Of a stretch of 39,704 nucleotides of DNA, positions 13,968 through 39,536 are shown one piece after another. A program made the position numbers and the translations under genes. This stretch comes from Nitrosomonas sp. GTDB taxonomy: Bacteria; Pseudomonadota; Gammaproteobacteria; Burkholderiales; Nitrosomonadaceae. The DNA is taken from positions 1 through 39,704 of the forward strand of contig JAGNZK010000027.1 of assembly GCA_017984435.1 (NCBI GenBank), given 5' to 3'. A model generated the notes under the pieces. The model saw nothing but the letters and a program-made list of their open reading frames with translations, was not told the origin of the DNA and did no database searches. Each line of letters begins with the position of its first letter. The first letter of the stretch is position 1.

Positions 13968-14960
13968 TTACGGTACCGGAAGCAATAGTCCACGTAACGT
14001 CAGCCCCACATTCGAGTCCGTATCCCGCAGTACCGGCATCGAATCCCAGTGCGGCTCGCTCATCGTACCCAGTAGATCGCGCATCTCGACAATCACCAAT
14101 TCCTGCAACTCTCGGTCAGGCTGAGCTGCGACGCTAACAAGAAAAATAGCATCGGCTGCATGCGAACTCCCGATGTTCGCCTCGATCTGTTGGCGAGTCT
14201 GAGGCATCGGTCCATCCTGCGCAGAGACAACGAATAGCAACCCATCACTCGCGATTGACGGCGGCCCGATCCTGGACGGCAGTCCCGCCAGCGACGGCAC
14301 AGTGAGATCCACAGCGTCCGACTGACCGAGTGCGACGAGCGCACGCCCGATAGGTAACGGTTGCAACCCATGCAGTGTCAGGCGGATATTCGGATCCGTT
14401 TCTCTGATCAATGGCATAGTGTTCCAACGTGGATCCCCCGCTTGTTCCAATACCTCCCGCATTTCAATAATTACGAGTTGGAGTAACTCTGCATCAACAT
14501 CGGCCATTTTCGTCACGAGAATGGCATCCATCGCGCGAGGAAGCGAGGCCACGGCTTCCGCATCGAGATGCGTCTGCGGCATAGGGCCGTCCTGCGCTGA
14601 GACAACGAACAATACTGTATCCACGGGCCTCGGGGTACCACCGTACTGTACCGGGAGCCCGGCTAGCAACGGCTTTGCTGTATTGACATGATCGGGGTGG
14701 CCAAGGACGACAATCATGACCCTGCTTGCTGTTAGCAATAAATTAGGCAAACTGTCAATGTAAATCGGATTGACATTCCCCCAAGGACCACCCAATACAT
14801 AGACGTCGTTATCGGTTGTGTTAACACCTGCATAAATAGTTGTTTCCGGATAAAACCGAAACAACCACGGTTCGCTACTTTGTGTTGTTTGATGGTTGGG
14901 AAAATACTGCGAATAATTATTCTCAGCCCAGTTAAACAATAAATATCGCTTCTCATTCAT
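13968..14960 (-). CDS. Protein of two degenerate EF-Tu G-domain fragments behind a WAE/FP module
   Basis: 330 residues, no signal peptide. Residues 6-75 form a small module (FNWAENNYSQYFPNHQTTQS, WLFRFYPETTIYAGV, DVYVLGGPWG), a pattern seen at the ends of various proteobacterial proteins. Residues 80-203 and 204-330 are tandem copies of a segment resembling EF-Tu from its G3 region through G5: GHPDHVN (compare PGHADYVKN), the identical stretch VVSAQDGPMPQT at 119-130 and 244-255, ELLQLVIIEMREVL (compare ELLELVEMEVRELL) and MPLIRETD. The P-loop is absent and the NKxD motif is TKMAD in copy 1 and lost in copy 2, so GTP binding is unlikely. The DNA is GC-richer than its neighbours (40 of 60 bases at 14281-14340). 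The ATG follows the stop of the DCC gene directly (TAGATG). Function unknown. Confidence 0.75.
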   Translation of the reverse strand: MNEKRYLLFNWAENNYSQYFPNHQTTQSSEPWLFRFYPETTIYAGVNTTDNDVYVLGGPWGNVNPIYIDSLPNLLLTASRVMIVVLGHPDHVNTAKPLLAGLPVQYGGTPRPVDTVLFVVSAQDGPMPQTHLDAEAVASLPRAMDAILVTKMADVDAELLQLVIIEMREVLEQAGDPRWNTMPLIRETDPNIRLTLHGLQPLPIGRALVALGQSDAVDLTVPSLAGLPSRIGPPSIASDGLLFVVSAQDGPMPQTRQQIEANIGSSHAADAIFLVSVAAQPDRELQELVIVEMRDLLGTMSEPHWDSMPVLRDTDSNVGLTLRGLLLPVP

Positions 14961-15332
14961 CTATAGGCGCCCGCTTCTTTTCAAACGCCGATTGACCATG
15001 CGATGGTAAAGCGATGCCAGCAATGGCCGAATCACCGGCAGACCGATCAGCCAAGCCAGCGGTTTTAGTAGTGATACCCGCGACATCAGCAAGATATAAG
15101 CATCAAGTTCGGAAACTATCTGTTGATACTCATCGCGAACATGCAATTCAGATAAAGCCTTGTGAGGATCAATACCCATATCACGCAGCTGCGCATCCTG
15201 CCCGCTGATATCGAACCAACACACATCTTCCCCATCTTTTCCCGCTAGCCTCTCATAGCTCTCCCGATCCTTGATGCAACTGGGACATGCGCCATCATAA
15301 AAAACAGTGATCTTTGGCTTTTCTTCACTCAT
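14961..15332 (-). CDS. DCC family thiol-disulfide oxidoreductase (DUF393)
   Basis: 123 residues. It starts ITVFYDGACPSCIKDRE, the DGxCxxC signature of the DCC/YuxK family, a thioredoxin-like cytoplasmic or membrane-proximal protein. Later blocks are VCWFDISG, LSELHVRDEYQQ and a C-terminal hydrophobic stretch with LLASLYHRMVNRRLKR. The exact redox partner is unknown. The ATG at 15332 is inside the end of the upstream kelch gene (8-base overlap), and its stop is immediately followed by the next ATG, so the three genes form one coupled unit. Confidence 0.85.
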   Translation of the reverse strand: MSEEKPKITVFYDGACPSCIKDRESYERLAGKDGEDVCWFDISGQDAQLRDMGIDPHKALSELHVRDEYQQIVSELDAYILLMSRVSLLKPLAWLIGLPVIRPLLASLYHRMVNRRLKRSGRL

Positions 15333-16326
15333 TATGTTCGACAATAGGGGGTATAAAAACTTCATTGACTTGACTAAAAGAGCCTCCCGGTGTTGGTCCA
15401 CCGCTGATTACGTATAGGCGCCCATTAACGACGGCTGAACCCAATCCATGACGTGCAGTGGGCATCGGGGCCATGGTACGCCACTGATCCATCGCAGAAT
15501 GATAGGCTTCATTCGTAGCGAATGTGCCGTCCTTCGTTTCGCCGCCAATAACATAAATCCAGTCATTGATGATACCTGCGGTTATGCCGCTACGAGGCGT
15601 TGGAAGATTCGCGCGTGGTTGCCATTGATTGGACTGCGGATCATATTCCTCAACGGTTGCCAAATTACGGTGATAATCCAGCTTAGGCCGACCACCGATA
15701 GCATAGATCCGATTTTCAGTCGCTACGACTGCCAGATGATCCCGTGGCGTAAACATGGATGCGCCGGATGACCAGGTATTCGTTTGTGGATCAAAAATTT
15801 CCACAGCACCGGAATTATGTTTACCATCATACCCGCCTATTGCATACAAACGGTTCTGATACACTGCAACGCCGAGTGCTCCGCGCGCGGTTGGCATCGG
15901 TGCCAGCTCGCGCCATTCCCGAGTCGCGGGATTGTATTGATAAACCGTGGCAACCGCATGCCAGACCGACAAGAAAGATTTTGTAAAACCGCCCACTACA
16001 TATAACATACCGTTAAGCGAAGCAATTCCCACATGATGCCGCCCTTCCGGTAGTGGCGTAGTGAATGACCAGGAATCAGCAGCCGTGTCATATACGGCCA
16101 CCTCATTACTGATGGCAAATTTCAAGACGTTGTCCAAATTGGGCCTATTAAACCCTCCCACCACATAAATCTTATCCGCAATAGCCGCTGCAGCCACTTC
16201 TGTTCGTTGTGTCGGCGCTGGCGCAGCCGTTGTCCATGTTCCTGTTGGAACATCAGCGAGTGCCGGGTTGTGTATAAAAGTAAAAAATAGAATGCCTGTG
16301 ATAATGAACAATCTTGAGATCAACAT
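15325..16326 (-). CDS. Secreted kelch-repeat beta-propeller protein
   Basis: 333 residues: a signal peptide (MLISRLFIITGILFFTF, cut near ALADV), then six kelch blades marked by IYVVGGF, LYVVGGF, LYAIGGY, IYAIGGR, IYVIGGE and LYVISGG, each followed by a Tyr and a W about 20-30 residues on. It should fold as a six-bladed propeller in the periplasm or outside the cell, a binding platform or (in some families) a sugar-acid mutarotase. ATG 16326 is chosen over 16383 because ggagg lies 8 bases upstream and the signal peptide then starts at the N-terminus. First gene of the minus-strand trio. 16327-16607 upstream shows no gene. Confidence 0.88.
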   Translation of the reverse strand: MLISRLFIITGILFFTFIHNPALADVPTGTWTTAAPAPTQRTEVAAAAIADKIYVVGGFNRPNLDNVLKFAISNEVAVYDTAADSWSFTTPLPEGRHHVGIASLNGMLYVVGGFTKSFLSVWHAVATVYQYNPATREWRELAPMPTARGALGVAVYQNRLYAIGGYDGKHNSGAVEIFDPQTNTWSSGASMFTPRDHLAVVATENRIYAIGGRPKLDYHRNLATVEEYDPQSNQWQPRANLPTPRSGITAGIINDWIYVIGGETKDGTFATNEAYHSAMDQWRTMAPMPTARHGLGSAVVNGRLYVISGGPTPGGSFSQVNEVFIPPIVEHNE

Positions 16327-39059: not shown

Positions 39060-39536
39060 GCGGTGGATCAGGGAATATCAGAGATATTGATGGAGATCAG
39101 GCATTCCGAGGCAATGGGCAACTGACATCGAAGCAAGAAGAAATTCGGCAATTGAAGCGAAAGAAACGAAGTGAGATATTCGTTCATCACCCAAAGGAAG
39201 AAGACCTACCCGATTGGCTTGATGTGCCAACTCATGGGCGTGAATCGTAGCGCCTACTATGATTATGTCCGGTACGCTGGTAATCAGATTAATGCACGAT
39301 TCTATGAGGAAATGCTTGAGACAGTTCGAGGCGTAGCAAAAGTCAGCAATGATACAAAAGCATTGAATGCGTTATGTTATCCGATTGGTCGCTGGAAAGC
39401 CCGAAGTCTGATGCGGGAAGCCGGCGTGCAAGTAAGGCACCGGAAGAAGTACAAGGTGACGACTGACAGCAATCACAAACAACTGGTATTTGAGAACAGG
39501 CTGAATCGACAGTTTGATGTTGCCAATCCCAATTAG
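39060..39536 (+). pseudogene. Decayed IS3-family element (orfA end plus truncated orfB)
   Basis: From about 39096 the frame reads DQAFRGNGQLTSKQEEIRQL, the coiled-coil end of an IS3-family orfA. A collapsed junction follows, and then the frame from 39171 (MRYSFITQRKKTYPIGLM) is an orfB start, with NRSAYYDYV and WKARSLMREAGVQVRHRKKY. The usual YGSRR segment between DT and KALNAL is missing, and the frame stops after VANPN, before any of the DDE catalytic residues. The element is therefore dead. It lies directly next to another IS start, an insertion hot spot at the edge of the TonB cluster. Confidence 0.85.

Follow-up and report, generated by a model that had tools for sequence, protein, structure and literature searches.

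A duplicated EF-Tu G-domain fragment without GTP-binding motifs in Nitrosomonas, a possible member of a rare family of exported pseudo-G-domains

We analysed a stretch of 39,704 nucleotides (hereafter the window) from the 2.8-Mb genome assembly of a Nitrosomonas sp., focusing on a minus-strand gene that starts directly behind a gene for a DCC1-like protein. The gene and its parts are laid out as follows.

14961..15341 (-): DCC1-like thiol-disulfide oxidoreductase (PF04134), upstream neighbour in the same direction
13968..14960 (-): complete gene, encoding 330 aa; by eye, the window copy has no signal peptide
14937..14960 (-): 24 nt with the new start (MNEKRYLL), immediately behind the DCC1-like stop codon
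14721..14942 (-): N-terminal export-associated module (LFNWAENNY...IDSLPNLLLTA), GC about 40%
14352..14717 (-): EF-Tu-like unit 1, 122 aa, GC about 56%
about 14436-14627 (-): significant EF-Tu core of unit 1
14571..14606 (-): VVSAQDGPMPQT of unit 1
13971..14348 (-): EF-Tu-like unit 2, 126 aa, GC about 59%
about 14025-14249 (-): significant EF-Tu core of unit 2
14196..14231 (-): VVSAQDGPMPQT of unit 2

Near the end of the window, at 39171-39536, an open reading frame resembles by eye the start of an IS3-type transposase.

The earlier note on this DNA, made from the letters alone, had described a segment of roughly 125 residues present twice and had traced it to EF-Tu, and both parts of that description held. 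Units 1 and 2 (122 and 126 aa) are 50% identical to each other, share VVSAQDGPMPQT without a difference, each contain the LVIxEMR(E/D)xL stretch that resembles EF-Tu helix D, and carry the xPxxR(E/D)TD ending as MPLIRETD and MPVLRDTD. Pfam GTP_EFTU matched the protein in two stretches (32.3 bits, E=9.6e-8, gathering cut-off 26.5 bits), and EF-Tu was the top NCBIfam family (61.8 bits, E=5e-17), the best family other than EF-Tu being SelB at 26.7 bits. With 57.9 bits the gene missed the curated EF-Tu cut-off (TIGR00485, 522.4 bits). Among solved chains phmmer found EF-Tu (best E=7.2e-8), placing residues 237-313 in unit 2 on EF-Tu 98-173, and profile-profile comparison agreed: the five known units, two in this gene, two in Nitrosomonas sp. 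GRE_AOB_3 and one in Microbacterium, matched 36 EF-Tu with P=8e-16 across EF-Tu 97-173, a segment that we take to run from beta4 to beta6 of the G domain. Judged by sequence, the match is not chance, and 13968-14960(-) can be assigned by descent to the GTP_EFTU superfamily, whose Pfam gathering score it passes.

The limits of the homology are narrower than first described. Profile-profile comparison gave no significant match outside the core at EF-Tu 97-173, so the proposal that the match starts at a G3-like GHPDHVN did not survive; the first 22-23 residues of each unit scored no better than the best of 30 shuffles in ungapped scans against 36 EF-Tu, the P-loop and G3 compete as best EF-Tu placement for the first residues of unit 1, and at the position of GHPDHVN in the first copy the second has GQSDAVD. 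EF-Tu domains 2 and 3 are absent, there being no further Pfam family at E≤10. TDPNIRLTLHG (TDPNxxLTLxG) was tried as the end of EF-Tu domain 2 and rejected (P=0.26).

We then aligned the five units (window 1, window 2, GRE_AOB_3 1, GRE_AOB_3 2 and Microbacterium). In EF-Tu numbering, D99, V104, V105, A107 and DGPMPQT (109-115) are kept in all five, as are D142, E144, L148, V149, E152 and L157. The P-loop, NKxD, which gives guanine specificity, and G5 have established roles in GTP binding. The earlier note had reported the P-loop missing and NKxD eroded, and the alignment bore this out: GxxxxGK[ST] is absent from the 330-aa window protein, whose profile match begins at EF-Tu 97, DxxG has no supported counterpart in the units, and NKxD is lost in 5/5, with V135 in place of the N135 found in 36/36 EF-Tu compared. 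The G5 motif SA(L/K) is also lost in 5/5 units, where ETD, DTD or SPG stands instead. Because P-loop, NKxD and G5 are absent or lost, the protein should not be a working GTPase.

Among the genomes searched, one homologue with the duplicated segment was found, in Nitrosomonas sp. GRE_AOB_3. Of 199 other genomes only one, which we take to be this one, had a full-length match to the EF-Tu-like part (E=2.2e-139, 86%); the remaining 115 matching genomes reached at best E=2.9e-8 over about 75 residues. GRE_AOB_3 carries the same gene at the same site (L044, 86% identical), with one difference at its start. Its protein begins MKNPIKQFILLFCTLIFVGSINVASADTAGD, by eye a typical signal peptide, and the interval from the DCC1-like stop to the module measures 230 nt, compared to 24 nt in the window, leaving about 206 bp missing from the latter. 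By eye, the 230-nt interval contains AAGGAG, an ATG and the signal peptide. The gap may be an assembly error; taken at face value, a deletion of about 206 bp would have removed the signal peptide in the window strain, so that the protein made there probably stays in the cytoplasm and its function may be on the way out.

Selection on the gene was estimated from this single genome pair. Window versus GRE_AOB_3 dN/dS was 0.128 for the module, 0.111 for unit 1 and 0.145 for unit 2, and the flanking genes (n=8) gave 0.013-0.147, a range that spans the gene's own values. The gene has been under purifying selection, as read from a comparison to which any recent relaxation in the window strain would be invisible. 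We consider it possible, if somewhat unlikely, that the window copy is a decaying relic, either in the wrong compartment or not made, and that the GRE_AOB_3 copy alone is functional. The missing interval with its start and signal peptide speaks for decay, as does the want of a clear Shine-Dalgarno sequence ahead of the new ATG, compared by eye with AAGGAG in GRE_AOB_3. On the other hand, the 330-codon frame is unbroken, dN/dS stays at 0.11-0.145 over module and units (pairwise values being blind to recent loss), and the new ATG lies directly behind the upstream stop, where translational coupling is possible. Decay of the window copy would also be compatible with an exported pseudo-G-domain as the gene's original product.

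The genomic surroundings point to no partner or function for the EF-Tu-like gene. A DCC1-like gene occurs in 35 of 86 Nitrosomonas genomes, and around it, in 30 loci, the EF-Tu-like gene was found in the window and GRE_AOB_3 only. One further locus (L125) pairs kelch with the DCC1-like gene and has no EF-Tu-like gene; in the other 27, we looked for six genes within about 1.5 kb and could identify the DCC1-like gene only.

The N-terminal part, by comparison, is widespread. The earlier note had seen the EF-Tu fragments as fused to an unrelated N-terminal module, which agrees with matches to this module (residues 7-78) elsewhere in Nitrosomonas with other passengers: it is present in 71 of 86 Nitrosomonas genomes, the window's own included (E≤1e-5), and the window and GRE_AOB_3 modules match at E=6.7e-42 with 88% identity. 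We read 30 module proteins from 33 loci tried, window and GRE_AOB_3 included, and most start by eye with a signal-peptide-like segment. A Pfam scan of six found RCC1-like repeats in three and CopC in one, while two, which have a common passenger of about 200 aa, gave no match above cut-off. The module itself has no Pfam match above cut-off in the proteins scanned and received no NCBIfam name in the window protein. The Nitrosomonas module proteins (LLNWAENNYPEYFP...) share their N-terminal module with the present gene and differ from it in their passengers, RCC1-like repeats or the common ~200-aa domain as opposed to EF-Tu-like units; the GRE_AOB_3 protein has a signal peptide, and the window copy is without one. 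In both genomes GC content is 40-42% in the N-terminal part and rises abruptly to 56-60% in the units, which fits a foreign passenger.

Two further observations concern the module. It sits on very different passengers (for example at L002, L093, L096 and L107), like a shuffled cassette. In the host genome a module paralogue (L004 1399-2245) seems to be divided between two frames that overlap, one of 96 aa and one of 226 aa, and is probably broken.

A more distant relative was found in Microbacterium sp. SS28. Its protein P0002, on a 4.75-kb contig (L045), combines a lipobox-like LAGC, a single EF-Tu-like unit (26.5 bits in Pfam, exactly the cut-off) and a PASTA domain (23.7 bits, cut-off 23.2); signal peptides and lipobox were read by eye. 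Its points of likeness to the Nitrosomonas proteins are a signal-peptide- and lipobox-like start, the dead EF-Tu-like unit and the residues E120-A121; it differs from them in having one unit, a PASTA domain, another phylum and other neighbours. The three neighbours of P0002 (L045 206-3415) gave no Pfam match above cut-off and no NCBIfam match. One of them has a NQVNSNFCGPTSITYEL stretch that resembles by eye a cysteine-peptidase active site.

We compared the likeness of P0002 to the Nitrosomonas units with its likeness to EF-Tu. A profile of the four Nitrosomonas units gave P0002 56.1 bits, compared to 46.2 or less for 36 EF-Tu; a 255-residue window query gave 44.7 versus 39.0 bits, and a single-unit query 42.3 versus 34.3 bits, a modest gap. 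Positions 120-121 read E-A in 5/5 units and L-L in 47/47 distinct EF-Tu segments, and all five units have in common an N-terminal strand with LG. In trees, the five units fell on the same side of one branch (support 99/95), and when the two unit-1 rows were removed the remaining three still grouped (99/97). Forcing the Microbacterium unit together with 12 EF-Tu of its order was disfavoured (p-AU=0.026 with all units, 0.038 without unit 1), and the four Nitrosomonas units formed their own group with support of 94/83, which was not starred. These trees rest on 82 columns, and their branches are very long, so that attraction between them may contribute, as the tree program itself warns; in the first tree the bootstrap had yet to converge. 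The EF-Tu comparison sets were picked by DGPMPQT, and the 47-segment set also by LNKxD, so these motifs are constant in them by choice, and for the same reason the trees left out the Microbacterium host's EF-Tu (DGPMAQT, unlike the DGPMPQT of the P0002 unit) and a Nitrosomonas EF-Tu piece (L023).

One common origin for the Nitrosomonas units and the Microbacterium unit is likely on these data. We think it unlikely that EF-Tu was captured twice independently and that the likeness reflects convergence of decaying G domains around a conserved DGPMPQT. In favour of two captures, much of the identity lies in the stretch that EF-Tu itself keeps, and the Microbacterium locus came from a pattern scan holding AQDGPMPQ, so that this string is shared partly by selection; the long branches and the single-unit advantage of just 8 bits over EF-Tu point the same way. 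Independent capture is harder to reconcile with E120-A121 and V135 shared against EF-Tu, with the N-terminal LG strand in 5/5 units and with the tree grouping and AU tests. A shared Q108 was dropped as evidence of kinship, as it lies within the search pattern and occurs in 3/47 EF-Tu.

Relatives turned up in two lineages only (Nitrosomonas and Microbacterium) among the matches listed and the genomes sampled. The contig pattern scan yielded at least 594 matching stretches, and the five loci examined included the two relatives; the other three (L046, L047 and L048) are ordinary EF-Tu. A search of 398 Pseudomonadota (E=1e-8) gave no new member: 16 other genomes passed, matching at query 161-239 only in frames of 265-504 aa, with NKxD after the motif in 14/14 fetched. 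Among 399 genomes of the host's order (E=1e-15) only its own passed. On the Microbacterium side, 396 genomes of the phylum (E=1e-15) returned the P0002 genome (G584) and G1116, the latter rejected as EF-Tu with P-loop and NKxD; 129 genomes of the genus (E=1e-8) returned G584 only; and 297 genomes of the order (E=1e-5) gave no new member, as 101 others passed at query 103-183 in frames of 308-729 aa, 24/24 fetched having NKxD and the rest being taken as EF-Tu by their frames. The genome samples overlap, and counts include the centre genome. Because the thresholds were chosen to keep EF-Tu out, weak members with a single unit may have escaped. Phage and plasmid records matched the window protein (5 phage, 30 plasmid) and P0002 (10 plasmid), none over 80% of the query, and where annotated they are EF-Tu or SelB. 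Three viral contig scans confirmed no member. In the part of the literature covered, no paper was found to describe a protein derived from EF-Tu that is separate, degenerate or exported.

An origin from the tuf gene of the host gained no support: there was no long DNA match to the EF-Tu loci fetched, and among the matches listed the blastn pieces were 22-65 nt, mostly across the DGPMPQT stretch. The host assembly itself has no match above the EF-Tu cut-off, and outside long frames the start of EF-Tu is matched there by nothing but a 41-residue open frame (G000:C63:5332-5448); probably the assembly broke at duplicated tuf genes and the host tuf dropped out.

The earlier suggestion that the protein acts as an EF-Tu decoy or mimic, binding EF-Ts, kirromycin-type ligands or a toxin, gained no support, the contact residues giving a mixed picture. 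His118, which we take to be an EF-Ts contact, is replaced in 5/5 units together with Leu120, Leu121 and Gln124, and Tyr160 in 4/5, the roles of positions 118, 120 and 160 in this argument being our assumption. Position 124 reads S, G, L, G and G (window 1, window 2, GRE 1, GRE 2, Microbacterium), domain 3, which supplies the rest of the kirromycin site, is missing, and EF-Ts would not be met because the relatives begin by eye with signal-peptide-like segments. According to passages of PMC6950810, Gln124 is used to measure the kirromycin pocket between EF-Tu domains 1 and 3. Passages of PMC5770160 place His19, His84 and Gln114 of EF-Tu around EF-Ts Phe81 and indicate that Tse6 appears to use this EF-Ts interface, Gln114 included, and EF-Tu is called a hot spot for such toxins in a passage of PMC7690452. 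Only Gln114 of these three residues falls within the matched segment, where it is kept in 5/5 units as part of DGPMPQT (one lineage having been found through that motif); His19 and His84 have no supported counterpart. No toxin or immunity gene was recognised by eye in the window. We hold it very improbable that the units bind EF-Tu-seeking toxins (Tse6-type, CDI) or elfamycins and so spare the real EF-Tu; half a G domain would make a poor decoy, if a conceivable one. It is likewise very improbable that a mobile family of exported EF-Tu look-alikes in unrelated bacteria uses a DGPMPQT surface to intercept, in the envelope, toxins of competitors or antibiotics that seek EF-Tu.

A surface adhesin that mimics moonlighting EF-Tu also seems very improbable. 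In its favour, the GRE_AOB_3 protein combines a signal peptide with a piece of EF-Tu, and passages of PMC5593925 report that heparin and fibronectin columns retain surface EF-Tu as well as the fragments cleaved from it. Those fragments are likewise EF-Tu pieces outside the cytoplasm, but as described there they are cleaved from genuine EF-Tu, whereas here a separate gene has its own export module. The heparin-binding motifs given in that text are basic, in contrast to the present proteins, which are acidic (pI 4.0-4.6) with 2-4 lysines.

As the best account of these genes we lean towards a rare and dispersed family whose exported pseudo-G-domains derive from EF-Tu and have been turned into a binding scaffold. 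The reuse of dead GTPases as scaffolds is known. Compared with EF-Tu (TIGR00485 / PF00009 GTP_EFTU), with which they are homologous across EF-Tu 97-173, DGPMPQT included, the present proteins have no P-loop, DxxG, NKxD or SAx that we could find, lack domains 2 and 3, are duplicated in Nitrosomonas and have a signal peptide in the relatives. The beta4 to beta6 part of a G domain of EF-Tu type would have lost nucleotide binding, been duplicated and been joined to the Nitrosomonas export module; in Microbacterium a single unit would have ended up in a lipoprotein that also has a PASTA domain. The protein would neither bind GTP nor work in translation. Outside the cytoplasm it would most likely act in the cell envelope as a small alpha/beta scaffold for binding, with two units offering two related surfaces in Nitrosomonas and one in Microbacterium.

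Since the units pass the Pfam GTP_EFTU cut-off, automatic annotation could name such genes 'elongation factor Tu', and they may have been overlooked for that reason. If our reading is right, a core translation domain would have been excised, deprived of its nucleotide binding and shared by different phyla as a component of the envelope. These proteins would then offer a small system in which the role of the DGPMPQT loop can be tested independently of GTP.
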